Origin: a virus
IMG/VR virus record: IMGVR_UViG_3300050821_005904
Location: 1-46,905 of that record
Strand: one strand, 5' to 3'
Length of the DNA stretch: 46,905 bases
The translations under genes were made by a program, and so were the position numbers. The notes beneath the pieces were generated by a model, which made no database searches, was not told the origin of the DNA, and saw only the letters and a list, made by a program, of their open reading frames with translations. Shown here piece by piece: positions 4,016 to 46,905 of the stretch; within the stretch, counting starts at the first letter, position 1, and each line of letters starts with the position of its first letter.

Positions 4016-4097
4016 GGACGCGCCTTTTTCTATTGAGGCGCGGGCAGTCTTTTCTATGCGGGCAGGGTTCCGCAACGCACGGCGTCAGGCCTCGGCG

Positions 4098-4175
4098 TCA
4101 TTGCCAAGTCATCACCAGCCATACGAACAGACTGAGAAGGATGAGTGTAAAAAGTTGCAGCGCGGTCAGCGCCAT
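4098..4175 (-). CDS. 25-residue membrane peptide
   Basis: A short frame starts two bases after the stop of the preceding gene and has AGAAGG as a possible ribosome site. Almost the whole peptide is one hydrophobic helix (LQLFTLILLSLFVWLVM). No family can be assigned. Its position just before the tail fibre, in a genome with several similar mini-membrane proteins, supports a real gene, but the short length keeps this tentative. Confidence 0.45.
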   Translation of the reverse strand: MALTALQLFTLILLSLFVWLVMTWQ

Positions 4176-4177
4176 GG

Positions 4178-4915: not shown

Positions 4916-5136
4916 CTCGGTTGCGGTCCCGAACAGCTCGACAGCGCTTTCTCTGTCATCCGCTCCCAGATGGCTTGATTGTCGGTGAAGCGCTCGCCCT
5001 GCTTGATTTGCAAGAACGTGGAGAAGCCGATGTAGAACAGATTGAAGACCACAAGAGCCAAGATCATCGGCGTCGTCGCCAGCGAGGCGATCAGCGCTCG
5101 GGCGGTGCCGCCGGCTTCTTCGACGGGCCCACTCAT
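4912..5136 (-). CDS. Small single-TM protein downstream of ejection protein
   Basis: The chosen ATG at 5136 overlaps the stop of the 1238-residue ejection protein gene (stop 5133-5135). The 74-residue product has a polar N-terminus, one long hydrophobic segment (about residues 21-42, TTPMILALVVFNLFYIGF) and a soluble tail. No family recognised; an i-spanin, holin or ejection accessory role are all possible. A longer in-frame start would only add Arg-rich sequence read from the overlapping gene. Confidence 0.65.
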   Translation of the reverse strand: MSGPVEEAGGTARALIASLATTPMILALVVFNLFYIGFSTFLQIKQGERFTDNQAIWERMTEKALSSCSGPQPR

Positions 5137-8100
5137 TGCTTGGGCTCTGGGATCTTGATGCCGAAGGCGTTGTCGGCGCCGTGCTCTACCGCGGTGAACA
5201 GACGATTGACCTCCCACAGGTTCTGCAAAAACGTGACCCGCCGCAGCGAATGCATGTCCCCGGCCGTGAAGTTTCCCGATGATATGCCCCCTGTCACCTT
5301 GGTGAGATCGCTTAGCTTGCCGATCGTGGGGCCGAGCAGGTGCTCGACGGCAGACTGGGCCGCAGTTTTGCTGACCGGCTTGTAGGCGCCGATCGCGCGG
5401 TAGATGTCGAGCTTGCCGGCCGTCGCCTTCGAAGCCAGCGTGTTGCCCTCTTCGAGCCAGCCGAAGATGTTGCCGCGGCTCATGGCCTCCTTGAACCAGT
5501 CCTGCGGCCGATCGCTGGTCGGGCTGCCTGTCACGATGGAATTGAGCTTGTAGCCCACCATGCCGAGAGCAAGCGAGGTGACGAGGCCCTGCAAGGTCTG
5601 AGCGTCGGAGCGCTGCAGGTTGGCAATCAGAATACGAGTGGTGGCAGACGCGGTGAATGATTTGAACTGCAGCAGGATCTTGCCAATCGCCGTGTCGAAC
5701 TCCGGAGGAAGATCAAGGCCCGGCGTCGTCGCGGCGATATCGGCACTGCGATGCAGCGCGCCTTCGAAGGCCTGCCTGGTTTCCTCTCGCCATGCCTCGG
5801 TATTTGGAAGCCTTGCCCCCCCGACGATGTTGGAGTGCTTTTCATAGTCCTCGACGATCTTTTCATAGAGTTCGGGCTGGATGTTGCCGGCGCCGAGAGT
5901 CATCTTCTGCTTTGCGGTAGCGGTCCCCTTGAGCGCAGCCTTGGCGGCGCGATAGAGGTTCGTCGAGCCGATCGTGAAGCTGATGGTCTTGATGAGATCG
6001 GTTTCCGGCGCAAGCAGGTTGAGGAGCTGCATCTTGTCGGCGCCGAACTGCAGCGCCCGCTCGAACGGAGAGCCGGGCTCGTCGTGGTCCACGATGCCGC
6101 TCATGGCATGATGCCGGGATGCGGTCTGCGTCTCCGTTGCAATGCCGGCCACCTTGGCCTGACGCTTGGCCTCGCGGTTGTACTTCTGATCGGACATCAA
6201 CGATTTCATGAACGGCGCCCAGCCATCATTGAAGGCCGAGGCCATTCCGTACATGAACACATGGTTTGCTGCGTCGGTAATGGAGTTCAGGCCAGACATG
6301 CCCATGCTCGTGATGACGACGGCATTGCGCGCCGCGGTCGAGAGCTGCCCCATCCGGCGCTGACTGGCGGTCTGGGAGATGGCATTGACCCCGCGCAGGC
6401 GGTCGCGCGCCAGGGCCAGATCCTCGATTGCGCCGGCCTTTTCCTTGGTCAGCTTGGCGATCTCGGAAGCGTTGCCGCGGGCGGCATCGATCAGGCGATT
6501 GTATTCCTCGTGGATCTGGCGAAAATTGTTGGTCATGTTGATGTCGCCAAATCGCTCGGCCAGCAGAACATCCGGAATGAATGTGCGATTGAAGCGCCGC
6601 ATCACCGTCATGATGTCGGTTTTGATCCACGGCAAGGCAAACTCATTGGAGACATTGAGAAGGCGATGCGCGAGTGATCCTCGCAACATCTCTCCTTTCG
6701 GCCCGCCGGGCAGTTGCGGTTCGGCCGATGCATCCTCATAAGGCAGCCGGCCATCCGGGGAGCCGAGAATGCGATCGGTGGTCTGCTGCGCTCTGGCCCG
6801 GATTGCCTCCGGGTCGTCCGTGATGCGCTCGTTCTCCAGGATGTGCTTGACGGCGCGATCGACGGCGGCATCAGCCTGGGTCAGTCGGCCGCCCTTCGGT
6901 TCACCGGGCGTCCGCTTGGCCTCGCGCTCGGCCTCGTACTTGGCCCGCGCCTTTATGGCCGACTTGGCCTCGGCCGGGGACTTGCCCTCCCATCTGCCAA
7001 TCTCCTCCTCCAACTTGCCCCTCATTTCGGCAACGCCGTCGTGCGCGGCCTGGAGCTGACTATCAATCTCTGCAATCTTGGCTGGGTCTTTCTCACGTTC
7101 GAGGCGCGCAGTCAGCTTGGCTATCTGTGCTTCATGCGCAGCAAGCGAGTTCTGGTAGAGCTGCATGCGGCCCTGAGCTTGCTGCTTGGCAACCTCGTCG
7201 GCCTGAAACTTCTCCGCAATGTGGTCGACGAACTTGGGCCGTTCGCGCTCGATGAGCGGCTTGTTCCAAGCATGATCGAAATGCTCTTCGCCTTCCTTCT
7301 GATCCAGATTTTTATACCCAGGAATTGATGTTTCGGCGCGACCCGTCCACTTCGCCCGGTGCTGACGATATGCTTGTACGGCCTCATTGACCTGTGGAAC
7401 GTCATGCGGCTTGGTAAAATTCGCAGCCTCGCCTACCACCTTCCTGAAATCCTCGAACGTGATGCCGGACATCGGGCCGGCGCCGGCCGGCAGACCTCCC
7501 AGGCGGCCCATCTCGCTTCGCAAGACCGCAGCTTTCGGTGGCTTATCGGCACCAAATCGAGCCGCCGTCCAAGCATCAAGCAGCTTATCCTGAAAGACAG
7601 CTTCGGATGATCGGATCGCCGACTTGACCTGCGTCTGCACCGGAGATCCGCCATAACTCGCCGGCTGACCTGCCGCGGTCTCCTTGGTGAGGACGGGGAT
7701 CTCGACAACATCGGCATAAGCGCGCTTTGCCATGATGCTTTGACGTTGCAGCATCCGCAGCGTCAGATCGCGGAACCCCAGCTTCACGAGGCCGCGCAGC
7801 GCCGTTCCCAATGTCAGATCGCGCAGGCTGCCAGGTTCTCCGACCGTGGTCAGCAGCTCCAGCTTTCTCATATCGGCGGCAGCGGCGCCGGCCGGGACGG
7901 CGATCGGAGCTGAACCCATCGTCGGAACGGATTCGACTGGCTCCTCGGCGATCCGCGGTTTTGCTTCCGCGGCAGCTGCGGCCTCAAGTGGCGGCGGCTT
8001 AACCGCTTCCGCAACGCCAGCCTCAGCAGCTGTGGCGGCTGCAGGCGGGGCTTCGGATGGCTGCCCCTCCGCATGGGCATCCAGCTCAGCCCGCACACGG

Positions 8101-19468: not shown

Positions 19469-19667
19469 TCTCTTCGAGTCCTTTGGACAACAAGCCCATC
19501 AATTCGGACGCGAAGATGCGTTGGCCATTTTCGACGCGCAACGCACGGACCTGCCCTGATCTGTTCACCTCCATCAGCCGTCGTTGCAGGTAGAGATAGA
19601 GCAGCTCGCCGTCGGGCGTGCGCCCGATGCGGTCGATTGCTTCGTGCATGGTTTCTTCGGTGATCAC
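19296..19667 (-). CDS. Small head-block protein (Bbp19-like)
   Basis: Protein of 123 residues starting at a GTG overlapping the portal stop (GTGA); the ATG at 19649 is an alternative. The N-terminal part (IDRIGRTPDGELLYLYLQRRL) and the RVENGQRIFASELMGLL helix recall the Bbp19-like proteins found between portal and scaffold in BPP-1 relatives. The C-terminal 57 codons overlap the scaffold leader in another frame. Role unknown; probably head assembly. Confidence 0.65.
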   Translation of the reverse strand: MITEETMHEAIDRIGRTPDGELLYLYLQRRLMEVNRSGQVRALRVENGQRIFASELMGLLSKGLEESARIRRSDAVIIEHARKHAVAGPDSRRRGIAAAIASGRQPSEFDTDDPRGPYGFGQT

Positions 19668-21289
19668 GGCAAACCCGCCGCTTGCTGCGGCTGGCCCTGC
19701 GGCGCCTGTCCGCCGGTCAGTTTGCTGATCTGGTCGAGCGCGGTTTGGACATCATTGGCATTGCGGAAATGGATGAGGTCGACGCGCATCTTCTTGATAA
19801 TGGCCTGCATGGTGGCGAAACCGTCGACCCGCAGTTTGAACTCCTCGGGAAAAGCCTGGCCCAGGATCTGGATCGCTTGCACCGTCTTGGCGATCTCCTG
19901 CTGCTCGGCGGCGCGCTGGGCTGGATTCATGGCGCGCGTCGATATCAGCGAGCCGTTGCGGCCGACCAAGCGCTGCACTGCGCCGACCCGCTCCAGGAGA
20001 TATTTGAACCGGTTGAAATACTGCATCGGCCCTTCGCGCCAGAACGCCATGCCGGGGGTGCCGATGCGTCGCTGCGCGCGCGCCATCTGGTCGAGCCACT
20101 GGCCGAGCGTCGGCGGGGTGTCGCCGCTCTGCTCCGGGAAGTCGATGAAGAACAGCTTCCGCATCCGGTGCTCCATCTCCTCGTGCTGGTAGATGGCCGG
20201 CTCCATGTTGATCGGCGGGTAAATCGGCTTGACGGCGCCTTCCGAGCCCTGGCGGATCGGATAGGCCATGCCGTCCTCGATCCCCTGCTCGATGTTGGTG
20301 AACGAGTCGCTCGGATAGGTAATCGGCGGATTGATATTGCGGCCGACGCCTTCGATCTTGCGACCTTCGAGCTCGTCGATCTGGCGCAGGTCCGGCAGCG
20401 TCTTGAACAGCGGACCCATGCCCCACGGCCAATCCGCGGTCGGATTGAACCGCGTGATCAGCAGCGGACAGCAGCCTTCGCCTTTGAGTTCGGTGCTATG
20501 GACCAGCTTGTTGCGCAGGAGGACCGTGTGCTCCCAGGTCTCGGTGCCGGTTTCCTCCCATTTGCGCCAATAGCCGAACACGACCTGGTGGCGGTCGCTG
20601 ATGTTGCCATCCTCGATGGAGCGGCGCTGCTCGGAGTCGACCTGGTCCCAGATCTCCTCGCCGAGCACGGCGCGGACATGGGGAGCGCGCGGCCAACGCA
20701 CCGCGAACCGGTCGTCGATTTCGCCGTAAGGCCCGAGATTGACCTCGCATTCGCGGATCGGAATGGCCTGGCAGGTGATGGGCGCGCCGGCGTAGGGGAT
20801 GTCGACCCACATGCCAGTCAGGCCGATCGAGAGGTCGGGATCGTAGGATTTCGGGATCTCGCTGTAGAAGTTCGACGCCTTGATCGCCTCGAAGATCAGG
20901 ATGTCGTCGTCGTAGACCTGGTCCTTGACCTGGTCCCACACCTGCTGCGGCACGAACATGCCGCGCCCGCGCTCGCACCACTGCTGCGCTTCGGGCATGA
21001 ATGTGTTGACGACCTCGGTCACAAACTCACCGACGAGGTCGAAGCCGACCGAGGTCTGCAGCTCCGGATAGTCCATCCAGCGCACCGTGCCGGGCGCAGT
21101 CTGCGAGGAGATCTGCCGCTGCCGGTGCGGCGCGGTCATGAAGTACATTTCCTTCATGTCGAGTTCGAAGAAACTTTTCCATGTGCGCGCGGCTGCCAGG
21201 CGCGACAGGACTTCTTTTTCGAGCGTGCGGTCGCCAGAGCCGCCACGGGGGCCCTCGTCGCCGCCTCCGGATGGTGTGCGGGCGAGCAT
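19664..21289 (-). CDS. Portal protein / head-tail connector (T7 gp8-like)
   Basis: Protein of 541 residues, the usual size of gp8-type connectors (T7, 536). Recognisable elements include the early helix (EVLSRLAAARTWKSFFELDM), PHRQRQ, FMPEAQQWCERG, SNFYSEIPKSYDPDLSIGLTGMW, and RFNPTADWPWGMGPLFKTLPDLRQIDELE, the last being a hallmark of the family. The C-terminus is Gln/Pro-rich. It should form the dodecameric DNA entry ring. The start overlaps the upstream stop as TGATG. Confidence 0.95.
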   Translation of the reverse strand: MLARTPSGGGDEGPRGGSGDRTLEKEVLSRLAAARTWKSFFELDMKEMYFMTAPHRQRQISSQTAPGTVRWMDYPELQTSVGFDLVGEFVTEVVNTFMPEAQQWCERGRGMFVPQQVWDQVKDQVYDDDILIFEAIKASNFYSEIPKSYDPDLSIGLTGMWVDIPYAGAPITCQAIPIRECEVNLGPYGEIDDRFAVRWPRAPHVRAVLGEEIWDQVDSEQRRSIEDGNISDRHQVVFGYWRKWEETGTETWEHTVLLRNKLVHSTELKGEGCCPLLITRFNPTADWPWGMGPLFKTLPDLRQIDELEGRKIEGVGRNINPPITYPSDSFTNIEQGIEDGMAYPIRQGSEGAVKPIYPPINMEPAIYQHEEMEHRMRKLFFIDFPEQSGDTPPTLGQWLDQMARAQRRIGTPGMAFWREGPMQYFNRFKYLLERVGAVQRLVGRNGSLISTRAMNPAQRAAEQQEIAKTVQAIQILGQAFPEEFKLRVDGFATMQAIIKKMRVDLIHFRNANDVQTALDQISKLTGGQAPQGQPQQAAGLP

Positions 21290-21528
21290 CAGCGCCGTCC
21301 AAATCCGCCGAGCCCGCCGCCGCCAAACAGGCCGCCGAACATGGGAGATGGCGTGGAGCCGCCGGACGTGCCGGACAGCGCGAGGCGCGCGCCGTAGCGG
21401 GCGAGCAGCGACGCGGTGTCGCCCTCAGCCTCGGTTTGCATCGCGGCGATCTGCTGCTGCTGCGCCGTCTTCGCCAGCTGTTGGAGCATCGGATCGGGCT
21501 GGATCTGCGGGGGCTTGGGGGCGCCCAT
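21289..21528 (-). CDS. Small Gln/Gly-rich protein upstream of portal
   Basis: Protein of 79 residues: a Pro/Gln-rich start, a predicted helix (LQQLAKTAQQQQIAAMQTEAEGDTA) and a Gly/Phe-rich low-complexity end (MFGGLFGGGG, FGRR). Coupled to the portal gene by stop-start overlap. Small proteins of this style often precede podovirus portals; a head-tail accessory role is possible. No family recognised. Confidence 0.65.
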   Translation of the reverse strand: MGAPKPPQIQPDPMLQQLAKTAQQQQIAAMQTEAEGDTASLLARYGARLALSGTSGGSTPSPMFGGLFGGGGLGGFGRR

Positions 21529-21539
21529 CTGGCGGGCCT

Positions 21540-21755
21540 TTAGGGCTTGGTGGCCACGCTGAGATAGGTCCAGGAGCCGAGCGCGGTGTTGGTAGCCCCG
21601 TTCGCGCTCTGGCCGACGATAGTGCCGGAAGAGAGCTGGCCGTTGCCGCGGCCGAACTCCTTCATCACCATTTGCAGAGCGTGATTGGCGAAGGCGACCT
21701 CAGAGGACTTCTTTTCGAGTCCCGGATCGTTGATCGTAATGGTCAGTAGCGCCAT
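21540..21755 (-). CDS. Hypothetical 71-residue protein
   Basis: The protein begins with a beta-like segment (LLTITINDPG), continues with an amphipathic helix (EVAFANHALQMVMKEFG) and ends Ser/Thr/Gly-rich. It lies 11 bases before the next small head gene, and its start lies inside the end of the preceding gene (56-base overlap). Probably part of the head operon; function unknown. Confidence 0.6.
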   Translation of the reverse strand: MALLTITINDPGLEKKSSEVAFANHALQMVMKEFGRGNGQLSSGTIVGQSANGATNTALGSWTYLSVATKP

Positions 21756-22218
21756 GTCTCACCCGCGCGATCTGGACGATGGTTGCACCATGGCGCAGAC
21801 ACTGGCGGCGGAACGCATCGGGCCGCAACGCACGGCAGGGCAGCCCGAGCAGGCGGGCGACCGCGGTGGTGCAGAGCATTGGCCGGAATAACCCCGGCCA
21901 AAAGCGGCCACTTGTTCCGGCGTTCATCGCCAGCACGTCGGCGTCGGCGGTCCATTCCGCGATCAGGCGCTTGGCCTCCTCGCCGCGGGCAACCTGGATG
22001 GTCGTGTGGAAAAATTGGCAGTCGTAGAACAGCCAGGCATCACAGGCGTGGATGTAGCCGAAACAGCGTGCGTGTTTGTGACGGCCGAGCGCGACGAGGC
22101 TCGCCCACCAGGTTGCGGCGCGCCGGTCAAACACGATCAGCCAGCGGGTGGGGGAGCCGCTGGCGTCAGTGGGGATCGGGTGGCCCACTTTGCCGCGCCA
22201 CTTTGATGGATGGAACAT
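21700..22218 (-). CDS. Hypothetical protein (172 residues)
   Basis: The frame is open upstream to a TTG at 22299, but the first ATG is at 22218 and fits the overlap with the preceding gene better. The product has FDRRAATWWASLVALGRHKH, FGYIHACDAWLFYDCQFFHT and VARGEEAKRLIAEWTADADVL, and a basic C-terminal part. The look is of a conserved phage protein with an alpha/beta core, but I cannot name the family. It lies upstream of the portal group. Confidence 0.6.
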   Translation of the reverse strand: MFHPSKWRGKVGHPIPTDASGSPTRWLIVFDRRAATWWASLVALGRHKHARCFGYIHACDAWLFYDCQFFHTTIQVARGEEAKRLIAEWTADADVLAMNAGTSGRFWPGLFRPMLCTTAVARLLGLPCRALRPDAFRRQCLRHGATIVQIARVRHGATDHYDQRSGTRKEVL

Positions 22219-22357
22219 CCTCCCATTCAGATGCCCACACGTGCCCAGCGAGAACTTGTCGGGCCAATGCAGCCGGATCAGATGCTTTACCGGCAGCAAT
22301 AAATAGCAAGCCTCGTTTCAGCCACTCGATGTGCCCCATAAGTTCACGCGTGATCAT
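22166..22357 (-). CDS. Hypothetical 63-residue protein
   Basis: Starts at an ATG with a GGGAGAGG site. The N-terminal half (HIEWLKRGLLFIAAGKASDPAALARQVLAG) looks like two helices and the remainder is polar. It overlaps the preceding gene by 14 bases and the next by 53. Nothing is recognised. Confidence 0.5.
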   Translation of the reverse strand: MITRELMGHIEWLKRGLLFIAAGKASDPAALARQVLAGHVWASEWEDVPSIKVARQSGPPDPH

Positions 22358-22499
22358 GGTCCCTCTCCCGGTCGAGAAGTTCCTGGAGAACTTCCTGCAC
22401 GTCGGGTTCGTATTTCATCAGGCGCTTGCACACTTGAATGATCAGCACCTTCAGCCGCTCGGCCTCGACACTGGCTGTTGAGGATCTCGTCCTACTCAT
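22344..22499 (-). CDS. Hypothetical 51-residue protein
   Basis: The chosen ATG at 22499 has a GAGAAGG site; a longer frame to 22538 would run into the upstream gene. The peptide has a Ser/Arg head and one long amphipathic helix (VEAERLKVLIIQVCKRLMKYEP) with an acidic/basic end. Function unknown. Confidence 0.5.
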   Translation of the reverse strand: MSRTRSSTASVEAERLKVLIIQVCKRLMKYEPDVQEVLQELLDRERDHDHA

Positions 22500-22518
22500 G
22501 GCGGCCACCTTCTCATTT

Positions 22519-23346
22519 TCACGACCCCGGGCGAACAACCCTTTGAATATCGATCAACCGTTTCTCGTTATCCTGTGTTCGGCTCAGCAGGGTGTCTATC
22601 TTCAAATACAGGTCTCCGGCCCAGCTCTCTGGATCGATTCGGTCGAGTGTCACGTTCATCTTGTTGAGCCACTCCTTAATTTCGTTGGTCTGTTGAGCTA
22701 TCTGCTTGCGCATTTTGTCCACTTCTCGCTGCACTTCGGCAGCGAGATCCTTGGCTTCCGTGAGCGCGCCATCCAGCTCTGGATTACTGCCGGCATCACC
22801 GAAAATTTCGTCGCGTATATCGGCGACCCACGCTTGCGGGCAATTAAGGCGCTGCGCCACCACCTTGTCAGTGTGCCCAGCGCAGTAGCAGCCATTTTTT
22901 TCATCGTAGCATTCTTGCAGTGTAATGATGATCAAGCGCTTTGTGTCGCGATCAGCCAATTTTGGGCCAAGGTTGAGAACCGCGTTGGCGCCATTAGCGG
23001 TTGATTGTTGCGTCGGCATTTGCTCTCGCCCCATATGAGCTTGCGTCGGGAGATTTATTACGGCAGCCGTCTGCCGTAGATCGGCATTGGAGAGCGGCTT
23101 GGCAGGGGGCCTACAAACGAAGCATCTGTGTTGTGATGGGATCAATCCTACCTGCCATCCAGCGCGGTGGAACTTGAGCGCAACCGCCTGAAATTCCCGT
23201 TGGTCGCTTGCGCCCGACTTGGCGCCTTTGAAGGTGTTCATACGCTCTGTTTGCGTTGTTCCGCACTTCCCACACTTGATCTCAAAGGCCCGCAGCGGCT
23301 TGTGGTCGATGATGACGTTTGTGGGCCTGAACAGCTTCTCATTCAT
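22519..23346 (-). CDS. Zinc-ribbon/HTH-like protein with coiled coil
   Basis: Protein of 275 residues. Residues about 18-80 hold two Cys pairs (CGKCGTTQT and HRCFVCRPP), enough for a zinc ribbon. About 150-190 is a segment with two further Cys (CYCAGHTDKVVAQRLNC) that reads like a helix-turn-helix (DKVVAQRLNCPQAWVADIRDEI). The last 80 residues are a coiled coil (AAEVQREVDKMRKQIAQQ). This suggests a nucleic-acid-binding protein. It lies 12 bases after the GHKL ATPase gene and may belong to that cassette. Confidence 0.65.
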   Translation of the reverse strand: MNEKLFRPTNVIIDHKPLRAFEIKCGKCGTTQTERMNTFKGAKSGASDQREFQAVALKFHRAGWQVGLIPSQHRCFVCRPPAKPLSNADLRQTAAVINLPTQAHMGREQMPTQQSTANGANAVLNLGPKLADRDTKRLIIITLQECYDEKNGCYCAGHTDKVVAQRLNCPQAWVADIRDEIFGDAGSNPELDGALTEAKDLAAEVQREVDKMRKQIAQQTNEIKEWLNKMNVTLDRIDPESWAGDLYLKIDTLLSRTQDNEKRLIDIQRVVRPGS

Positions 23347-23358
23347 AGTGGCCCCTAA

Positions 23359-24759
23359 CTATTCGGCTGCCTCCGCCTGTTGATAATGATCAGCCACCTT
23401 TTTCCATGCGCGCAGCCCGAGATGGTCTCTGTCTCCGAGATCGAAGAGCAGCTGCTCCGAATTTTGACCCTCGTACAAAAGCATGGCGATGTCATAGAGG
23501 GCGATGACGCACAGTTCCTCATCGCGGCCCGCGCGCAGCTTGGCGATGTGAGGATTGTCGCTCGCCAGCTGTATTCGTGCTGACTTTTTCTCGATCAGCG
23601 CTCTGCCAAATCCCTCGGTCTCATGCAGACCATCGGAAAATTCGATCAAGAGACCACGCGGGGGTTTTCTCCCGCTGGTCGGCCCTGTCGGAGTTGGGTC
23701 TGTATCTGGCGCAGGCTTCACGCGCTTATCACCGCCCTTGGGACCCTGTCTGCCCTGGGGGTCCTTTTTTACGGGCCGCGAAATCTTCATATGGTCCGGG
23801 ATCATGTCGTTCAGCAATTGCACGATGCGGTTCGTCCTGAGCTTGAGGGACGCAGAGTGACACTTCTCCAGCACCGGAGCGATTATTTCCGCGACCGCAT
23901 CCTCCAGCTGATCGTATTCGTTTTTGTCGAACAGCTCGTCCTTGAACTTGGCCAAGTGCCAGCCGCCTTCGAGGCTGACCCGACAATACATAGCGGATAT
24001 GCCGGCATATCCGTCGCAAGCGAAAGCGCTCTCCTTTTTGATGAGGCGCCACGCATAGGAGACATCGACCTGCTTCAATTTTGATTTGTGGTCGACCAGC
24101 ATGCCGGCGATAACGCTGGCTTTATTTCCTTCTCCTAGATCGATCTCGCCCTCGACTACGTCGGTCATGGCTGGCAATGGTATGGGTTGAATATCGGCGC
24201 CGTTTAGCGTCACAGTGCGGCCATACAGCATAGCGGGGTAATACAGCCGCTGTATTATGTTGGCTGTTTTTACAATATCTCGTTCTTTTGGTTTACGGAA
24301 AAGCTCCAATATCTGCACACGGGTGTAGGTCGACTTGCCATGAGCTGGGAATCTGTTGGGCTTCGGGAAAAGCCACCGACCCGAGGTGCGGACTGTGCTC
24401 CAGTCCCAAAAGCGGACCATCTTTCCGTCTATTGATACGCTTTCGAATTTTATGCACTGCCCGTGTTGAATTGCCTTGGATTTGATGCCGACCCCATAGC
24501 GGCCCAGCTTCGTGCCCACCATAGCTCCGTGCACGGAAAGACGCGTGAGCGCATGGTCCCGATCCTTAGTGATCCCCTCGCCATTATCCCAACAAGTCAA
24601 CTCACCGGCATTCATGATCAGCGCGACCTTTGTCGCGCTTGCATCGAATGAATTGTCTATCGCTTCCCCGGCCCACTGCCAGAACTCAGACGGCTCCGCG
24701 CGGATAGCGTCAATTAGATGAGTGCTCGGAACGCCCTCCTCATCGTAATTATTCTGCAT
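23359..24759 (-). CDS. GHKL-type (HSP90/MORC-like) ATPase
   Basis: Protein of 466 residues with the Bergerat ATP-binding fold in the first about 100: N-box EAIDNSFDASA (E32, N36), G1 motif CWDNGEGI (D58, G60, G62), and G2 motif GRYGVGIKSKA (G86-G91). This puts it in the gyrase/Hsp90/MutL/MORC superfamily; a histidine-kinase identity is unlikely because no H-box or receiver is seen. A second domain (about 130-310) may be the transducer region. A Lys/Pro-rich linker (about 320-370) precedes a C-terminal helical domain. The gene overlaps its DUF3102-like neighbour by 11 bases and is preceded by GGAGC. Such ATPases often act in DNA handling or in defence; the phage role is unknown. Confidence 0.85.
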   Translation of the reverse strand: MQNNYDEEGVPSTHLIDAIRAEPSEFWQWAGEAIDNSFDASATKVALIMNAGELTCWDNGEGITKDRDHALTRLSVHGAMVGTKLGRYGVGIKSKAIQHGQCIKFESVSIDGKMVRFWDWSTVRTSGRWLFPKPNRFPAHGKSTYTRVQILELFRKPKERDIVKTANIIQRLYYPAMLYGRTVTLNGADIQPIPLPAMTDVVEGEIDLGEGNKASVIAGMLVDHKSKLKQVDVSYAWRLIKKESAFACDGYAGISAMYCRVSLEGGWHLAKFKDELFDKNEYDQLEDAVAEIIAPVLEKCHSASLKLRTNRIVQLLNDMIPDHMKISRPVKKDPQGRQGPKGGDKRVKPAPDTDPTPTGPTSGRKPPRGLLIEFSDGLHETEGFGRALIEKKSARIQLASDNPHIAKLRAGRDEELCVIALYDIAMLLYEGQNSEQLLFDLGDRDHLGLRAWKKVADHYQQAEAAE

Positions 24760-25342
24760 ACGACGGCTCCAAAATGGCGAATGTCTGCATCAAGCCAGCG
24801 AGTAGCGCGCCCTTATCTTCCTCTGGTAGTTCCCGGTAGGCGAATTCTATCTGAGGACCTATTGTCCTGATCCATTCCACTAGATTTTTTGATTCCGACT
24901 GAGGAGCCGCGCTGGCTGCTGCTTTTTTTTTAACAGACTTCGGTTCTATCCCACGTAATTTTCGCACGTCCTTGCGCTGCATATTTGGGTTTATGGCGCC
25001 TGACGCGATGCCGTTCTCGAACTGAGCGGCGGTGAGTTTGGTTAGTTCATGGAGGATGGACCAGTGCACCGGCAAATGGGAAGCATGTTTCCCATTTCGG
25101 AGCCTTTCGTCGTCAGCTATTTTAATTAGCATGTTACCCATTCGCTTTGAAAATGGCGCCTCATTATTTTTGAACATCAGCTCCCATTCGCCGTGTAGCA
25201 ATTCGGCCTTTGCCGCCTCCAGCAGGTTTCCGGTTTCGAAGATGCTCGGCAGCTGCTCGCGCCACGCGCAGCTGATCAGCGCGGCCCAATCGGCGCGGGA
25301 GCGGGTGTTTGGCAATTTCGTCACCTTGATCGCCATGCCCAT
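24749..25342 (-). CDS. DUF3102-like protein
   Basis: Protein of 197 residues. The core (about 33-110) reads GNLLEAAKAELLHGEWELMF, a basic stretch with MGNMLIKIADDERLRNG, and HASHLPVHWSILHELTKL; this matches the pattern of DUF3102-type proteins (AK...HGEW, then HLP...L.EL) frequent in phages of alphaproteobacteria. A Lys/Ala-rich linker follows and then an acidic helical tail. It lies between an RHH gene and the ATPase gene and overlaps the latter. The molecular function of the family is not established; DNA binding has been suggested. Confidence 0.72.
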   Translation of the reverse strand: MGMAIKVTKLPNTRSRADWAALISCAWREQLPSIFETGNLLEAAKAELLHGEWELMFKNNEAPFSKRMGNMLIKIADDERLRNGKHASHLPVHWSILHELTKLTAAQFENGIASGAINPNMQRKDVRKLRGIEPKSVKKKAAASAAPQSESKNLVEWIRTIGPQIEFAYRELPEEDKGALLAGLMQTFAILEPSYAE

Positions 25343-25357
25343 TGCAGTTCACACTGT

Positions 25358-25540
25358 TTATTGATCGGTCTGCAGTCCCAGCTTCACCAGTCGGCGGATA
25401 GCTTCCGCCTGTGAGGGCTCGTCTTCTTGCGCAGCGCGCCAAGCGTCGACCTTTTCGATCAACGTCACATGTCCGCGCAGAACGATCTGCTTGGTGCGTC
25501 CCGCGCTCTTCAGGTGATCGCTTCCGGCTGGTGCTGGCAT
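25358..25540 (-). CDS. Ribbon-helix-helix regulator
   Basis: Protein of 60 residues, first gene of the cassette. The sequence KQIVLRGHVTLIEKVDAWRAAQ followed by PSQAEAIRRLVKLGL matches the strand-helix-helix of Arc/CopG/MetJ-type DNA-binding proteins. It is most likely a dimeric repressor of its own operon, or an accessory DNA-binding subunit of the ATPase system. Two promoter-like signals and an operator repeat lie directly upstream. Confidence 0.78.
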   Translation of the reverse strand: MPAPAGSDHLKSAGRTKQIVLRGHVTLIEKVDAWRAAQEDEPSQAEAIRRLVKLGLQTDQ

Positions 25541-25569
25541 CCGCAGATGCTATGAGGACATAGCAAGAA

Positions 25570-25631
25570 CGTCAACGAAAACCTTCAACGATAACAAAAT
25601 GTTATGTCACAAAATGTGGTTTACGAGTCAA
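25570..25631 (-). promoter_or_regulatory. Promoter/operator of the RHH-DUF3102-GHKL cassette
   Basis: On the minus strand, TTGACT (25626-25631) and ACATAA (25602-25607) are 18 bases apart. An inverted repeat ATAAC-N5-GTTAT (25591-25605) overlaps the -10 of that promoter, as a repressor site would. A second promoter-like pair, TTGACG (25570-25575) and TAGCAT (25547-25552), 17 bases apart, would give a nearly leaderless transcript at the ATG of 25540. The same inverted repeat occurs at 40163-40212 in front of the Cro-like gene. Confidence 0.55.
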
Positions 25632-25654
25632 CTCAATCACATAGCGGGCATTGG

Positions 25655-25873
25655 TCAGGACCACACACCGCGAACGTATTTCTCAAACGCGTCGTAATGC
25701 TTCCACGCCCCGCAGCAGGCGCAGCCCGCATCGAACTCCTCGCAGCGCGGGCCGAAATACTCGGTCACGTAGCGCTTCATGCGAGTCAGGACGATGTCGG
25801 TTTCTCTCCGAAGCATGCGCTCGCGGATGCAGCTGCGCTCGATCTCGAGGTCCTTGATGGTTCTCGTGATCAT
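25655..25873 (-). CDS. Small Cys-containing protein
   Basis: The chosen ATG at 25873 gives 72 residues; GGGGGTGA upstream may serve as ribosome site. Two helices with many Arg/Glu (KDLEIERSCIRERMLRRETD) are followed by YVTEYFGPRC and CACCGAWKHYDAF, whose Cys cluster could bind metal. Last gene of the small-gene run below the terminase, convergent with nothing. Function unknown. Confidence 0.55.
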   Translation of the reverse strand: MITRTIKDLEIERSCIRERMLRRETDIVLTRMKRYVTEYFGPRCEEFDAGCACCGAWKHYDAFEKYVRGVWS

Positions 25874-25886
25874 ACGATCACCCCCA

Positions 25887-26084
25887 TCAGGCCGTAGCAA
25901 GCTTCACGGCCCACATGGCGGCTTCCTCGTAGGCCGTCATCGCCAGCTCGGCCAGCCGCGGGTCCTTGTCCTTGTTCGCCTCGCAGAAGTCGATCAGGTC
26001 GGCCGTCCTCCGCTTGATGATGTCAACCGCCGAGTGACTTTCCGGATTGAAGGTGAGCCGCACTCTCGTCTCGCCGATCGTCAT
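25887..26084 (-). CDS. Acb2-like protein (candidate cyclic-oligonucleotide sponge)
   Basis: The ATG at 26084 is chosen because AAGGAG lies 7 bases upstream; the ATG six bases before it is too close to that site. The 65 residues are two helices with a short turn, marked by TFNPESHSAVDIIK, ADLIDFCEA and TAYEEAAMWAVKLAT. This pattern (FNPxx...V..IK...A.LID, then AAMWAVK) matches phage proteins of the Acb2/Tad1 hairpin group as I know them. Acb2 blocks CBASS by binding cyclic di- and trinucleotide signals. It sits among small accessory genes behind the terminase. Family placement is from memory of the pattern, not a search. Confidence 0.7.
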   Translation of the reverse strand: MTIGETRVRLTFNPESHSAVDIIKRRTADLIDFCEANKDKDPRLAELAMTAYEEAAMWAVKLATA

Positions 26085-26229
26085 GCGCATTCTCCTTGCG
26101 CTGCCTCTTGTTGAACTTGCGCTTGATACGGGCGCGCTCACCGGGGCGCCAGTGGAGATAACGCTTGGCGCGCCGGCTGAACGCATCCCATTCATCGCCG
26201 CCGCTGAGCCGCTCCCGATGTCCCATCAT
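26023..26229 (-). CDS. Small basic protein
   Basis: The ATG at 26229 overlaps the upstream stop (ATGATG). The 68-residue product has WDAFSRRAKRYLHWRPGERARIKRKFNKRQRK, an Arg/Lys/Trp-rich stretch seen in small phage proteins that may bind nucleic acid. Its end overlaps the Acb2-like gene by 62 bases. No family name can be given. Confidence 0.55.
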   Translation of the reverse strand: MMGHRERLSGGDEWDAFSRRAKRYLHWRPGERARIKRKFNKRQRKENAHDDRRDESAAHLQSGKSLGG

Positions 26230-26480
26230 ACGATCTGTCCCTTGCGCCGCAGGTAGTCCACGGCCTCGGCCAATGAGCGCTTGGTGACCTCCATTTTCGG
26301 CTTGCCATACATGGCCTTCGCGCACGCGACGCAGAAGCGCTTGTCCGTCCTGGGGCTCGTATGCGCGATCCAGATGCGTTCGTCGCATTCGTCGCAGCGG
26401 CCGATTACGGACGCGGCAGAGGGGATCGGCATATCGGCGACGCGCATGCAAACAAGGCCGGTGTCATCGTCTTTCTTCAT
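26226..26480 (-). CDS. Small zinc-finger protein
   Basis: Protein of 84 residues with two CxxC pairs (GRCDECDERIWIAH, FCVACAKAM) spaced as in a treble-clef or TraR/DksA-like finger. The C-terminal part is helical and basic (KRSLAEAVDYLRRKG). The start has the strong GGAGGATC leader that recurs in this region. Possible transcription modulator; family uncertain. Confidence 0.65.
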   Translation of the reverse strand: MKKDDDTGLVCMRVADMPIPSAASVIGRCDECDERIWIAHTSPRTDKRFCVACAKAMYGKPKMEVTKRSLAEAVDYLRRKGQIV

Positions 26481-26493
26481 GCGCTGATCCTCC

Positions 26494-26577
26494 TCATCGC
26501 AGCAGAACGAAGCAAGCCAGCAGGATCAGCAGGAGCGCTATTTCTATTTTCAATTCCACCTTCCACTCGTCCTTCAC
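26494..26577 (-). CDS. 27-residue membrane peptide
   Basis: A GTG start preceded by the repeated GGAGGATC leader opens a 27-residue peptide: a charged head (VKDEWKVELK) and one hydrophobic helix (ALLLILLACFVLL) ending in Arg. The stop overlaps the leader of the next gene. The perfect ribosome site argues for a translated gene; its role is unknown. Confidence 0.5.
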   Translation of the reverse strand: MKDEWKVELKIEIALLLILLACFVLLR

Positions 26578-26612
26578 GCGCTGATCCTCCGCATCGACTT
26601 GTTAGCCTCGAC

Positions 26613-26909
26613 TCACTGTTTTTCCTTCCAGTCGCCGCACCAATCTTCGTTCAGCGTTATAGGCCAGTGGGCTTCGAACGGCTCATCCATTTCAGGATCG
26701 ATGCTATAGTTTGCCTCTTCCCTATTTGCGGTTTCCTCATCGGCAATTTCCCTGACGAGCCACCACAGCAACAACGCAGCGGCTTCGCTTGATTGCCGCA
26801 CAGCGTTGGGCATCGCCATTGGCGATCTATGGTGACAGGTTCCTTGCTGGCGCCGCTGCAGATAAGAACGCACCCAATAGGTGCACGTATCGCATCTCAT
26901 CTCTGTCAC
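26613..26909 (-). CDS. Small Cys-rich protein after terminase
   Basis: A GTG start overlaps the terminase stop (GTGA) and uses a GGAGGATC site inside the terminase gene; the product has 98 residues. It carries CDTCTYWV, a GTCHH pair and a terminal NEDWCGDWKE, the same Cys layout as the HiPIP-like proteins at 4178-4915 and 31633-32148. The middle is hydrophobic (AAALLLWWLV), then acidic. A longer ATG-initiated reading to 27134 would only translate the terminase gene out of frame. Confidence 0.65.
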   Translation of the reverse strand: MTEMRCDTCTYWVRSYLQRRQQGTCHHRSPMAMPNAVRQSSEAAALLLWWLVREIADEETANREEANYSIDPEMDEPFEAHWPITLNEDWCGDWKEKQ

Positions 26910-28423
26910 GCGCTGATCCTCCGCATGCTCTTCCTGCCAGCATAGACCTTGATCGGCTTCATCGCGCCGAGCGCGGTCTGGCCGACCATGCGTTGGCCCT
27001 CGCCGAGGCCAAGACAGGCATATTGCAAGGAGTCGCAGACATGACTGAATTTGTCCTTCTTCGGCGTCAGCTCGCCGTCCTCCTCGCGCTCCAGATGATA
27101 GCGGCCAGCCATGGCGAGCTTGAGCGTCCGGCACAGCGGCGATAGACAGAACCGCGGCCGGCCGTCGTACATCGAGGTGAGCAGGCTCGTCACCGCCTCG
27201 ACCCGGGTCGCGATCATGTTGTGCTTCAGGCCCGGCGGCGGCCGCACCGCCATGCCGTTGGCATTGAATATGTCGTATGCGGTCCGCTCATCGGCCTGCC
27301 CCTTATCCTGGCCCTTCGGATCGCCGTAATAGTCGACGGCATATCCGTCGTAGTGGGTGGCGATGAACTGGCTGACCCTGGGAGCAAATGTCACTGCGCC
27401 TTCGTTGAACCCGAGCAGCTCGTACTGCACCATGACGCGGTTGTTGATTTCCTGCATGAACACCGCCGCCGGCTGCCGGCCGAAATCGAGACCTACCACC
27501 ACGGTGTGGCCGGGAATCGGACGCAGCGGGATATGCGATACGTGGGCGTCGATCGAGAACTGCGGCCATACCGGCGAGCCGTCGACCACCAGTGCGATCT
27601 CATTGCGCAGCCGCGAGTCGATCCATGACTTCTTCTTGGCGTGCCAGGTTTCCGGGTAGTACTCCGCGCGCAAGTTGGCGAGGTTCTCCGCGTCCGGATT
27701 GACCTTATATCCCGTGAACATGCCGGCGCCGTCGCGCACCTCCAGCACCGCGGGCGGCTGCTTGTAGAAACCCCAGAAGTCCGGCCACACATATTCGCGC
27801 CGCTCCTCGTCGGTCAGGTTCGCCGGCATCGGCACCATGCCCGTCATGATCGCCAGCCAGTGGTCCTCGTCGGGCGCATTGGTGTCGGCGATCATGCCAT
27901 GCCACTCGGAGCCGCCATGGTCGGGCCCCGGCCAGCGCAGGCGGCCCATGCCCTCGTCGAACAGGATCTTCGGGATGAACGCCAATTCGTTCCAGGCCAG
28001 TCCCGTGAATTCCATGGATCTCAGCCGGTGCAGGTCGACCTCGCGGTCCAGCCCCATGAAGATGACCTCGGCGTCGACATCGCCGAACCGCAGCCGGTGG
28101 GTCGGCGGCGGGTTGCCGGTGATGGGGCCGTAGATTTCCTCGGGCACGATCTCGCGCCACGTCTTCATCGTGGTCGTCTTCACCTCGGTGTAGGTGTTGC
28201 GCACGATGGCCCAGCGCGACATCCGCCGCCCGGTGAGCTTGGAGACGCGCTGCTGCTGGATGTGGCGCATGACTCTGGCGCACATCGCCTGGGTCTTGCC
28301 CGATCCCAATGGTCCGCAAATGACGTCGACCGGGCGGTCGCTGAGCAGGAACTTCGCGAGCTGGGTGTTGGGCGCGACCCTGAACACGCGTCTGGTGTCC
28401 GGCTGTTTTGGCGCCTGCGCCAT
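26906..28423 (-). CDS. terL: Terminase large subunit
   Basis: DNA-packaging motor and headful nuclease, 505 residues. The ATPase domain has Walker A CGPLGSGKT (G37-T44) and a Walker B-type segment ending in WNE (E146). The nuclease domain has D313 in GLDFGRQPAA, D368 in YYGDPKG, and a late Asp in KKDKFSHVCDSLQYA. It starts the late minus-strand block with an AGGAGTGAG site and stands opposite a divergent plus-strand gene. The probable small subunit is not adjacent but at 34331-34813. Confidence 0.95.
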   Translation of the reverse strand: MAQAPKQPDTRRVFRVAPNTQLAKFLLSDRPVDVICGPLGSGKTQAMCARVMRHIQQQRVSKLTGRRMSRWAIVRNTYTEVKTTTMKTWREIVPEEIYGPITGNPPPTHRLRFGDVDAEVIFMGLDREVDLHRLRSMEFTGLAWNELAFIPKILFDEGMGRLRWPGPDHGGSEWHGMIADTNAPDEDHWLAIMTGMVPMPANLTDEERREYVWPDFWGFYKQPPAVLEVRDGAGMFTGYKVNPDAENLANLRAEYYPETWHAKKKSWIDSRLRNEIALVVDGSPVWPQFSIDAHVSHIPLRPIPGHTVVVGLDFGRQPAAVFMQEINNRVMVQYELLGFNEGAVTFAPRVSQFIATHYDGYAVDYYGDPKGQDKGQADERTAYDIFNANGMAVRPPPGLKHNMIATRVEAVTSLLTSMYDGRPRFCLSPLCRTLKLAMAGRYHLEREEDGELTPKKDKFSHVCDSLQYACLGLGEGQRMVGQTALGAMKPIKVYAGRKSMRRISA

Positions 28424-28561: not shown

Positions 28562-28900
28562 ATGACCAACGCACCCATCGACCCAAGCTCAGGACGCGCC
28601 GATCCGACGGCGGGAGACATGAACCTTGCCCAGTTCGAGAAGAGCAGGAGCCCGAGCCGCCGTACAAGTCTGTTGGAGGCCATGCACGCGTCGGCGGGCT
28701 TTCCAGGCCGCAGCAAGATGCCGGCGCATCTACCGGCGCGTTACCGGTTCACCGGCCGCAACGTTCAGATCAACATCAAGGTCACTCATGAGGTCTGGGC
28801 GCGGTGGGTCGACGTCGCCGACGAGCATCGGTTCGCATACGGGGAGCTGCTGGAGCTTGCGCTCGATGCTTTGCTCGAAAAGTGGGCCGCCGGGAGGTAA
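28562..28900 (+). CDS. RHH-like DNA-binding protein
   Basis: Protein of 112 residues with an AGGAGG site. The first 65 residues are polar, Ser/Arg/Pro-rich and probably disordered. The end (VQINIKVTHEVWARWVDVADEH, then YGELLELALDALLEKW) fits a strand-helix-helix domain like ParG/CopG. Two palindromes stand directly upstream, so self-regulation is likely. Role in late or replication control is inference. Confidence 0.65.
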   Translation: MTNAPIDPSSGRADPTAGDMNLAQFEKSRSPSRRTSLLEAMHASAGFPGRSKMPAHLPARYRFTGRNVQINIKVTHEVWARWVDVADEHRFAYGELLELALDALLEKWAAGR

Positions 28901-28938
28901 CCCGTAGCGGTTGTGTAAACCGCGCGAATCACAACAAA

Positions 28939-28970
28939 ATAAAAACCCCGGTGTATCGAGCACCAGGGTT
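28939..28970 (-). terminator. Intrinsic terminator on the minus strand
   Basis: Read on the minus strand, AACCCTGGTG and CACCGGGGTT form a 10-bp stem with one mismatch and a 7-base loop, followed by a TTTTTATTTT run. It would stop leftward transcripts arriving from the 33.9-30.1 kb operon before they reach the terminase region. Confidence 0.7.
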
Positions 28971-29103
28971 CTTGGTGGGTCGGAAAGGACCCAAGTCACT
29001 AGTATCACAATCCCCATACACACTGATTTGGTCCCCGGAGTCAACTTCGATCTTTCCGGGCATGGGGAAAAATTTGGTCCTTTCGGCCTCGATCGGAGGC
29101 CAG

Positions 29104-29793
29104 ATGTTAAGGAAATCTCAACTCTTATCTGCTCTGTCGTTGGAATATGCAAACGAAACAATCAGCGAAGACGAATACCAGCGCCGATGGGAAGCCATCG
29201 ATGGGCCCCAGGCTCGACCTGCAAAGCCAAAGCCTAGCCTCCCCAGATACCGGCCCCCTCGCAGCCCGGATCGCCAGGCTTCGATCCAGCGCCGTCGGCT
29301 TCTCGTTGCATCCGGCCCGCTACCACCTCCCCTGGCTGCTCGATTCACCTGGGGAGAAGTCGCGGTAATGCGCATCATCGGCGACGAATGCCGCGCGCAC
29401 GGATGCTGCTTCCTGCATATCGACACTATCGCGGCCAGAGCCGGCGTCCACCGGACCACGGTGCAGAACGCGCTCCGGGAGGCGCAGGGCAAGGGTGAGG
29501 TGCCCGGTGCCCCCATCATCACGGTGCAAGAGCGCCGCCGCCCCGGTCAGCGCAGTCTCACCAACATCATCAAGATCGTCTCGAAGGAATGGTGGAGCTG
29601 GCTCAACAAGGGACCTCGCTGGCCCGGCCAGGGGGTGGGTTCAAAACACACTCAATCCAAAAAATTGAGCACCACGGATACAAGTAAGAAAGAAGAAGCT
29701 GCCGGTAGGATAGAACCGACCGGAGGAACTAGTCCACTGGAAAATGCCCTCCAGGGCTGGGGCAGGGTGGTAGACACCCGCCGCCGCACCTAA
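29104..29793 (+). CDS. Winged-HTH (HTH_36-like) replication/regulatory protein
   Basis: The ATG at 29104 has a GGAGG site and gives 229 residues; an in-frame start at 28804 is unlikely because it overlaps the previous gene. A Pro/Arg-rich N-terminal part is followed by a winged helix: FTWGEVAVMRIIGDECRAHG, LHIDTIAARAGVHRTTVQNAL as the recognition helix, then a wing with PIITVQERRRPGQRS and LTNIIKIVSKEW. This is the pattern of HTH_36/replication-initiator-like proteins. The C-terminus is low complexity. It may start replication, as no polymerase or primase is present; this is inferred. Confidence 0.7.
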   Translation: MLRKSQLLSALSLEYANETISEDEYQRRWEAIDGPQARPAKPKPSLPRYRPPRSPDRQASIQRRRLLVASGPLPPPLAARFTWGEVAVMRIIGDECRAHGCCFLHIDTIAARAGVHRTTVQNALREAQGKGEVPGAPIITVQERRRPGQRSLTNIIKIVSKEWWSWLNKGPRWPGQGVGSKHTQSKKLSTTDTSKKEEAAGRIEPTGGTSPLENALQGWGRVVDTRRRT

Positions 29794-35875: not shown

Positions 35876-36046
35876 ATGACCAACCACGAATACATCGCCG
35901 CGCTTCACATGCGCCACCAACGGTATCAGACGCACCGTCGTCGCGAGCAGCGGCTCAATTTCTGGATCGGCGCAAGTGCCGTCGCCTTCATGGCATGCAT
36001 GTCGCTAGTGCCGGTTCTAATCATCATCAATGACATTTGGGCGTGA
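35876..36046 (+). CDS. Small single-TM protein
   Basis: The ATG at 35876 has AAGGGGAAAG upstream. 56 residues: a basic N-terminal helix (RHQRYQTHRRREQRL) and one transmembrane segment (WIGASAVAFMACMSLVPVLI). Topology would place the basic part in the cytoplasm. A longer frame from 35684 overlaps the previous gene. Confidence 0.6.
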   Translation: MTNHEYIAALHMRHQRYQTHRRREQRLNFWIGASAVAFMACMSLVPVLIIINDIWA

Positions 36047-36108
36047 GCGTTGCGCATTGCCGCTCCCATGCGGTGCGGCTTTGCAGAGCGCTTTTGCTCA
36101 GAGGGGGA

Positions 36109-36894
36109 ATGAACATGTCAAACTATAGCAACATCAAATCGACGCGCATCAAGCCCGAGGACGCGGCCCGGTGGGGCTTCGCGGTCATGGCCTCGATCGA
36201 TAATCCGAAGGCGAGCAAAGCCACGGAATACGGCTACCTCAACGCGATACTGTACATGGCGCCGAAGGATAGCGCCGGAGTAGGAGATTTGTGCCCCAAC
36301 TCCGGAGATTGCGTGCACATTTGCCTTGGCGCCCATAGCGGGCAGGCATCGATGCGCAAGGATGACGAAGACAACGCGGTGACGCTAGCTCGGAAGGCGC
36401 GCGCGCGCGCCTATATGACGGAGCGGGAATTGTTCCTGACATACGTCAAGCGCGACATAGAACGTCTGCAGGGCATTGCCGCTCGCATGGGGCTGCAGCT
36501 GTGCTACCGGTTCAACGGGTCGACCGATGTTGGCGTGCCTGCATGGCTATGCAATATGTTCCCCGCGGTGACGTTCATCGATTACACGAAAAACCCCAAC
36601 AAGATGGCGCAATATCTCGCGGGGCGGTTGCCGCCGAATTACCACGTCACTTTCTCGCGGGACACGCACAATGAGCGGCTCGCCGAGCGGTTCCTAGGGC
36701 AGGGCGGTAATGTCGCGGTGGTGTTCGGCAATGGGCGGCCTGCTGCGTGGCGTGGCTTTGCGGTCATTGACGGGGATAGACACGACGTTCGTACACCTCA
36801 AATGGACGGCCGCGGCGTTGTGATCGCCTTGACGCCCAAAGGCGCCAAGGCGAAGCGCGAAACCAAGGGCTTCATCGTGAGGGATGCTGCATGA
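36109..36894 (+). CDS. GP88-family protein
   Basis: The ATG at 36109, with GAGGGGG upstream, gives 261 residues; the ATG two codons later is an alternative. Marks of the GP88 family (gene product 88 of mycobacteriophages and plasmids) are TEYGYLNAILYMAPKDSAG, LCPNSGDCVHICLGAHSGQA, YVKRDIERLQGIA, and the VTFIDYTKNPNKM and HVTFSRDTHNE strands. The three Cys near residue 65 may bind metal. Its function is not established. It is coupled to the next gene by ATGA. Confidence 0.82.
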   Translation: MNMSNYSNIKSTRIKPEDAARWGFAVMASIDNPKASKATEYGYLNAILYMAPKDSAGVGDLCPNSGDCVHICLGAHSGQASMRKDDEDNAVTLARKARARAYMTERELFLTYVKRDIERLQGIAARMGLQLCYRFNGSTDVGVPAWLCNMFPAVTFIDYTKNPNKMAQYLAGRLPPNYHVTFSRDTHNERLAERFLGQGGNVAVVFGNGRPAAWRGFAVIDGDRHDVRTPQMDGRGVVIALTPKGAKAKRETKGFIVRDAA

Positions 36895-40279: not shown

Positions 40280-40735
40280 TTACCCCCTCATTTTGGGGGA
40301 TTGACTCCCGCGCAACAGGCCGTGCGTTTCCAGCCACCAGATCGCGGCATCGAGGCCATAGGCCACCGCCACCTTGGCGCCCGCAGCCTCCATGCGCTGA
40401 AGGGTTTCGTGCTGCTCGTCAGCCAACTTGCCCTTCGCGCGCTTGAGCTCCAGGCCATAGATGTGTCCGTGTTGTAATACGATCACATCGGGAACTCCGG
40501 ATACCACGCCGAGCCCCGCATTGATCCCGCGCGCTCGCCCACGCTGATGGACGCCGCCGTTCTTGGGATGAAATGCAAACACACCGGGCGACCCCCGTGT
40601 CCGCAGATGAGCGAACACGGCGCGCTGGATCTCGTTCTCGCTGGGATCGGTCGCATGCTGTGGAGAATGGACCTGCTCCACACACAGGTTGTTATTCCCG
40701 CGAGTCGCCGCCTCGCCTATTATCATATCGGACAT
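40280..40735 (-). CDS. VRR-NUC nuclease
   Basis: Protein of 151 residues with the PD-(D/E)xK layout of VRR-NUC domains: SENEIQRAVFAHLR (E35), GVPDVIVLQHG (D83), GLELKRAKGKLADEQ (E96, K98, Q108), then VAVAYGLDAAIWWLE. These are Mg-dependent nucleases related to Holliday-junction resolvases. It stands divergent from the YqaJ gene and may act with it in recombination or genome processing. The ATG three codons on is an alternative start. Confidence 0.85.
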   Translation of the reverse strand: MSDMIIGEAATRGNNNLCVEQVHSPQHATDPSENEIQRAVFAHLRTRGSPGVFAFHPKNGGVHQRGRARGINAGLGVVSGVPDVIVLQHGHIYGLELKRAKGKLADEQHETLQRMEAAGAKVAVAYGLDAAIWWLETHGLLRGSQSPKMRG

Positions 40736-46795: not shown

Positions 46796-46905
46796 TTCAC
46801 CACGAATCCGAAATCGTGCCAGCCGAGCAGGAACAGCAGCACGAACAGCAGTATGGTTGGCGCCCAGCTGAATTGAGTTGCGCCGGGTCCCCAGGTGGTC
46901 CAGCC
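46792..46905 (-). CDS. Two-TM holin-like small protein (C-terminal part; gene crosses the contig join)
   Basis: Second part of the 55-residue gene begun at 151. Bases 46809-46905 repeat 1-97, so the unique part is 46792-46808, coding the last five residues and the stop. The end overlaps the next start by ATGA. Confidence 0.7.
   Translation of the reverse strand, partial: GWTTWGPGATQFSWAPTILLFVLLFLLGWHDFGFVVK
46809..46905. repeat. Terminal direct repeat, right copy
   Basis: Identical to bases 1-97; see the left copy. After removing one copy, the circular genome is 46808 bases long. Confidence 0.95.

Follow-up and report, generated by a model that had tools for sequence, protein, structure and literature searches.

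A MORC-like GHKL ATPase and its exchangeable partner: a predicted two-gene accessory module of phages

The window analysed here, a viral DNA record of 46,905 nucleotides, carries a gene for a MORC-like GHKL ATPase next to a gene for a DUF3102-like partner protein, and pairings of this kind recur in dozens of phages that are unrelated and for the most part uncultured. We consider it somewhat better than an even chance (probability about 0.55) that the two genes form an accessory module, in which a DNA-binding partner recruits the MORC-like GHKL-S5 ATPase, which closes as an ATP-dependent DNA clamp. The pairing itself is a real, repeated combination of known parts. We found no description of a GHKL plus ParB pairing in phages in the open-access literature, and the phage GHKL/partner pairing is apparently undescribed so far.

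The window comes from a podovirus-like phage that encodes an internal virion protein of the T7 type. It has a 97-bp direct terminal repeat (1-97 and 46809-46905), and the record is therefore probably a complete genome. An earlier note on this DNA had described three close-packed minus-strand genes inside the late block. The three open reading frames were recovered at the same coordinates (Table 1), with a 15-base gap between the first two and an 11-base overlap between the second and third, and they lie between the terminase gene (26906-28423) and the portal/connector gene (19664-21289), all on the minus strand. The late-block location thus stands as far as the flanking genes go, but the cassette is there only by way of an inserted segment of ~4.6 kb that is absent from a sister phage. 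The promoter signals that had been ascribed to the cassette did not hold up, since the two sigma-70-like matches found do not exceed the 2.6 that chance alone would give; one match (25575-25547, minus strand) ends 7 bases ahead of the RHH start codon. On the other side of the terminase gene, a plus-strand gene for an HTH_36/replication-initiator O-like protein (28804-29793) adjoins it.

Table 1. Features of the inserted segment in the window.
Feature	Position	Strand	Evidence
GHKL (Bergerat-fold) ATPase, 466 aa, MORC-like by prediction	23359..24759	-	PF13589, AF2 model, Foldseek, profile vs PDB
DUF3102-like all-helical partner, 197 aa	24749..25342	-	PF11300 E 9e-4, below cut-off
RHH (Arc-like) small protein, 60 aa	25358..25540	-	PHROG 4738 transcriptional repressor, E 5e-4
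Inserted accessory block, lower GC	22300..26900 (ends approximate)		Missing from sister L096
Acb2/Tad1-hairpin-type protein, 102 aa	25887..26195	-	PF24729 E 6.4e-9, 36.3 bits vs cut-off 27
Zinc-ribbon/coiled-coil phage protein, 275 aa	22519..23346	-	PHROG 21667 E 5.5e-28

The 466-residue protein matched HATPase_c_3 (PF13589) with an E-value of 4e-11 (43.4 bits, cut-off 25), in agreement with its description as a GHKL ATPase with intact ATP-site motifs. In 30 diverse homologues, D35, N36, D58, G60, G62, G86, G89 and G91 are invariant, and E32 is kept in at least 90%. K273, which lies beyond the second domain, is also invariant and would be expected to contact ATP. The AF2 model (pLDDT 74.1, pTM 0.65) is good over residues ~10-320, except for a poor loop near 70-90, and is made up of an ATPase domain (~10-150), an S5/transducer-like domain (~180-275) and a long helix (279-318); the chain continues with a disordered linker (~322-367) and a small alpha/beta domain (~368-466). 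The model, the Foldseek matches and the invariant K273 all point to an N-terminal GHKL domain followed by an S5/transducer domain with a conserved lysine.

A Foldseek search with the predicted structure, as the earlier note had suggested, gave MORC2, MORC3 and MORC4 as the closest fold (E = 4e-16). The solved structures nearest in fold were MORC2 with DNA, MORC3 and MORC4, followed by TRAP1/Hsp90 and GyrB. A profile search of the PDB likewise placed MORC4, MORC3 and MORC2 first (E = 7e-12), with MutL next; a single-sequence search of the PDB gave no match. The protein thus has the GHKL plus S5-like ATPase module of eukaryotic MORC2/3/4, its nearest relatives by profile and fold, with the ATP-site residues kept. 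It is viral and only ~14% identical to eukaryotic MORC, and its putative DNA-binding partner is encoded by a separate gene, whereas MORC has fused CW and coiled-coil regions.

The presence of a GHKL protein in a phage raises the possibility of an rIIA/rIIB-like pair, in which an HTH-type partner and the ATPase would shield the infection from prophage or host exclusion, as in T4 rIIAB. In rIIA, too, an N-terminal GHKL domain is joined to a variable C-terminus, and the protein has been described as poorly understood counter-defence (PMC7824862). Furthermore, there is an HTH-like stretch at the N-terminus of T4 rIIB, RIIA models were found among the viral fold matches at ~1e-10, and hhalign to T4 rIIA gave an E-value of 2e-4 across the GHKL part. 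However, just 85 columns of the GHKL core aligned, between proteins of 466 and 725 residues, and neither of the partner profiles was significantly similar to T4 rIIB. Moreover, the best viral fold match (1.8e-29), a 494-residue protein that is probably gp96 of Mycobacterium phage Bobby, given the equal length, was far above both the RIIA models and the topoisomerases. Membership of the rIIA/rIIB family was rejected on the GHKL-only alignment and the missing rIIB match, and we regard an rIIAB-like function as unlikely. PADLOC returned MzaB (E = 3e-4), a match confined to the common ATPase core, and assignment to MzaB was rejected on this ground. The module shares a GHKL ATPase domain with the defence proteins MzaB of the MZA system and VcSduA of Shedu, but is without their nuclease, Z1 or AIPR partners. 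On the fold, profile and rIIA/rIIB comparisons, we file the ATPase only as MORC-like GHKL-S5, a predicted class that rests on architecture, profile and fold, and not as rIIA or as a restriction-system paraMORC.

Homologues were collected from viral contigs by a scan with the three Bergerat motifs and a second one with a 14-sequence alignment, which gave ~45 loci, selected by the ATPase alone and none by its neighbours. Removal of near-duplicates left 43 ATPases, including that of the window. Single-protein searches of the viral contigs returned the same phage only, a first search with a two-sequence alignment gave no new relatives, and a plasmid search gave no matches. When ~50,700 phage records were searched with four family members, only Mycobacterium phage Bobby matched substantially, and a faecal contig without annotation gave one further, partial match. 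For scanning bacterial genomes, the 30-row alignment proved too diverse; the genome scan found at least two full-length family members, a lower bound as the pattern search was strict, both in metagenome-assembled bacterial genomes, plus distant GHKL proteins.

The ATPase was conserved together with a partner in 41 of the 43 non-redundant relatives, where a partner gene on the same strand overlaps it or lies within 13 bp, a count that is partly circular, as the partner profiles were built from the neighbours themselves. Some of the large overlaps are an artefact of always taking the farthest start codon. For one of the two remaining ATPases, the contig breaks off within the gene, and the other has no recognised partner. 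Twenty-nine partners are ParB/Noc-like (20 upstream of the ATPase gene, 9 downstream), six are DUF3102-like, that of the window included, and six belong to a third, helical type; all of the latter two types are upstream. No matches to the partner profiles were found away from the ATPase among 2,326 ORFs of at least 100 aa in the ATPase-bearing loci. The linkage, the conserved ATP site and the MORC-like fold bear out the proposal of a phage-borne DNA-binding plus ATPase module, and the partnership looks obligate in the sequences compared, even as the partners are swapped. Neither of the two outcomes that the earlier note named as refuting, unlinked genes in relatives or ATP-site residues that vary among homologues, was observed.

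The ParB identity of the most common partner is supported independently of our profiles by Pfam matches in 8 of 20 members, by PHROG ParB-like families and by PDB matches to Noc, ParB and Spo0J (E = 7e-12), and these proteins carry motifs related to the ParB boxes, DGRNR and NxxRRHL. In most relatives, the partner thus has the ParB fold signature of the ParB/Noc CTP-dependent DNA clamps, with Noc and ParB as the best PDB matches. Unlike in ParB/Noc systems, however, no ParA was found (PF13614 in 0 of 20 contigs, and no match in the window genome), the partner is a GHKL ATPase, and in the window a DUF3102-like protein with no ParB_N match takes the place of ParB; membership in ParABS was rejected on the lack of ParA and ParB_N. 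The ParB motifs and the absence of ParA would both fit a ParA-independent partition system or nucleoid organiser, with a ParB-like partner bound to a centromere-like site and ParA or SMC replaced by the GHKL protein. Such a function is very unlikely, considering that the ParB domain is swapped for unrelated-looking partners, and that about half of the contigs encode an integrase and would not need episome partition.

Of the three partner types, the DUF3102-like one of the window is understood least. Its match to DUF3102 (PF11300) was below the cut-off (19.9 bits against 24.4), but the 197-residue protein is clearly homologous to the other DUF3102-like partners, which are encoded directly 5' of the GHKL gene in loci L024, L026, L039, L040 and L073. 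The AF2 model is weak (pLDDT 66) and all helical, and gave no significant match in Foldseek. DNA binding by this protein is putative. We detected no sequence homology between the DUF3102-like and ParB-type partners. The DUF3102-like and third types gave a weak C-terminal match (E = 0.0016) and may share their C-terminal part; a C-terminal tail common to all partner types, suspected by eye, was unsupported for the ParB type. In a maximum-likelihood tree of the ATPases, the DUF3102-like and third-type labels each required at least four changes, on well-supported branches, and the window's clade (100/100) includes three DUF3102-like and two third-type partners. Because one type replaces another beside the same ATPase, the partner types are suggested to do the same job. 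A DUF3102-like protein that is 33% identical to that of the window, gp51 of Mycobacterium phage DeadP (L004, 4968-5765), is encoded directly after a repressor gene, with no GHKL gene adjoining.

The core of the module comprises two genes, rather than three or four. The proposed co-occurrence of RHH, DUF3102 and GHKL genes stood for the latter two, with the DUF3102-like protein in six loci and the GHKL gene paired in 41 of 43, but the RHH gene does not recur: it had no Pfam match, and outside the window's own phage no homologue was found among the first 33 homologous loci. The RHH protein is probably a local regulator. The zinc-ribbon/coiled-coil gene, considered earlier as a fourth member, has homologues in Rhizobium, Sinorhizobium and Microcystis phages in which no GHKL homologue was found. 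Neither gene was found at the module in relatives, and both were dropped as module parts.

Comparison with close relatives indicates that the module is accessory. In the contig of a sister phage (L096), the terminase and portal proteins are 70% and 74% identical to those of the window, and the gene order is the same, with the terminase followed by homologues of window 21700-22299, 21540-21755 and 21289-21528 and then the portal; in place of the window's ~4.6 kb, there is one unrelated gene of 120 residues. The GC content of the segment is 55.6%, compared to 61.8% and 60.5% on either side. Because the sister lacks the block and the GC content is lower, we consider the cassette to be accessory cargo in the late operon, rather than part of the late gene set. 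A second case is phage Bobby, in which the ParB-like gp95 and the ATPase gp96 are part of a 3.5 kb insertion (gp93-gp97, L003 about 3338-6830) between an esterase gene and gp98. Phages Schatzie and Dove, ~97% identical to Bobby on the left flank and 94% on the right, are without this insertion. In 18 of 19 loci (L036-L077), the module had a lower GC content than the sequence around it, as expected for recently acquired genes. Taken together, the sequences point to a horizontally moved, accessory module, seen as an insertion in two unrelated phages.

An accessory module of this kind might also serve superinfection exclusion or defence against incoming competitor DNA, through silencing or restriction of the MORC/paraMORC type. 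The integrases in about half of the 20 related contigs suggest that many carriers are temperate, and in Bobby the module follows the immunity repressor gene and a small HTH gene at a distance of a few genes. The ATPase resembles the prokaryotic MORC and paraMORC1-5 proteins (Iyer et al. 2008, PMC2292703), which have a GHKL-S5 core with a C-terminal extension and are encoded by mobile genes, and paraMORC genes sit in restriction-modification operons with helicases and nucleases; a MORC-family-specific motif separating MORC from paraMORC is mentioned in the same work (PMC2292703). Unlike paraMORC, the phage ATPase pairs with ParB/DUF3102-type proteins, an association absent from the text of that paper. 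Membership in a restriction-modification system, with its linkage to SF2 helicase, methylase or endonuclease genes, was rejected: the constant neighbour is ParB/DUF3102-like, and helicase and methylase genes near the module are only occasional. There is no nuclease or other effector in the module, the PADLOC match was to the common ATPase core only, homologues in bacterial genomes are very few, and the window genome gave no integrase match; an exclusion or defence function is thus rather unlikely.

In relatives, the neighbouring genes include YqaJ, RecT, NinG, Prim-Pol (primase-polymerase) and DNA methylases. In one locus (L064, 3506-4321), a DAHP synthase gene is next upstream of the module, an odd neighbour for a phage gene. 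The replication and recombination neighbours, and an ATPase core common to type II topoisomerases, could reflect an ordinary helper in DNA topology or replication, or a regulator of early-region transcription, with no role in conflict. We give this little weight, as close relatives without the module are viable and no TOPRIM or nuclease partner is present.

The inserted block of the window also encodes an Acb2/Tad1-hairpin-type protein, which had no PDB match by sequence alone and is predicted to be a cyclic-nucleotide sponge with anti-CBASS/anti-Thoeris activity; the family consists of phage sponges that block defence signals (PMC12043709). The gene is context of the inserted block, not a member of the module, and a role as general companion was rejected, since it occurs in only 2 of 39 related records. 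Its presence in the same block slightly favours counter-defence. From this gene and from the replication and recombination genes around the relatives, we judge, at our most speculative, that the module may be of benefit through counter-defence, or by protecting or re-organising DNA in the course of infection.

MORC ATPases act in transposon silencing in both animals and plants, and MORC clamps compact DNA in animals; how their prokaryotic relatives work is poorly understood. ParB recruits SMC on bacterial chromosomes. In the two-gene mechanism that we favour, the partner (DUF3102-like here, ParB/Noc-type in most relatives) would mark DNA or be loaded on it and would recruit the MORC-like GHKL-S5 ATPase to that DNA. 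Upon binding ATP, the ATPase would dimerise and close as a clamp, and the closed clamp would bridge, loop or compact the DNA. We infer the partner contact, clamp closure and compaction from the recruitment of SMC by ParB and from MORC2, a DNA clamp with DNA compaction driven by ATP hydrolysis (PMC12216690). A broader formulation, which we hold tentatively and as less probable, is that of a ParB-MORC type of DNA-organising system, in which a ParB/Noc-like or DUF3102-like loader would deposit a MORC-like ATP clamp on chosen DNA, making a viral machine for compaction or silencing that is distinct from ParABS, SMC, rIIAB and restriction systems. Such a machine would provide a simple prokaryotic model for MORC silencing.

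If the favoured mechanism is true, a compact, repeatedly swapped two-gene phage version would reveal the smallest set of parts needed, namely a loader that binds DNA and an ATP clamp. The genes with which phages counter defence or control DNA would also gain a candidate class. A phage MORC-like ATPase that is consistently paired with ParB-type proteins is likely to surprise specialists, although its function is known by prediction only. MORC-style clamping becomes testable in bacteria, and Bobby, which grows on M. smegmatis mc2 155, and the near-identical phages without the insert are a ready natural comparison.

Outside the inserted block, the window encodes a GP88 family protein (36037-36894, plus strand; PF17338, E = 7e-28), from a phage family without assigned function, and an endonuclease/Holliday junction resolvase-like protein (40280-40735, minus strand; PHROG 93 and 5702).
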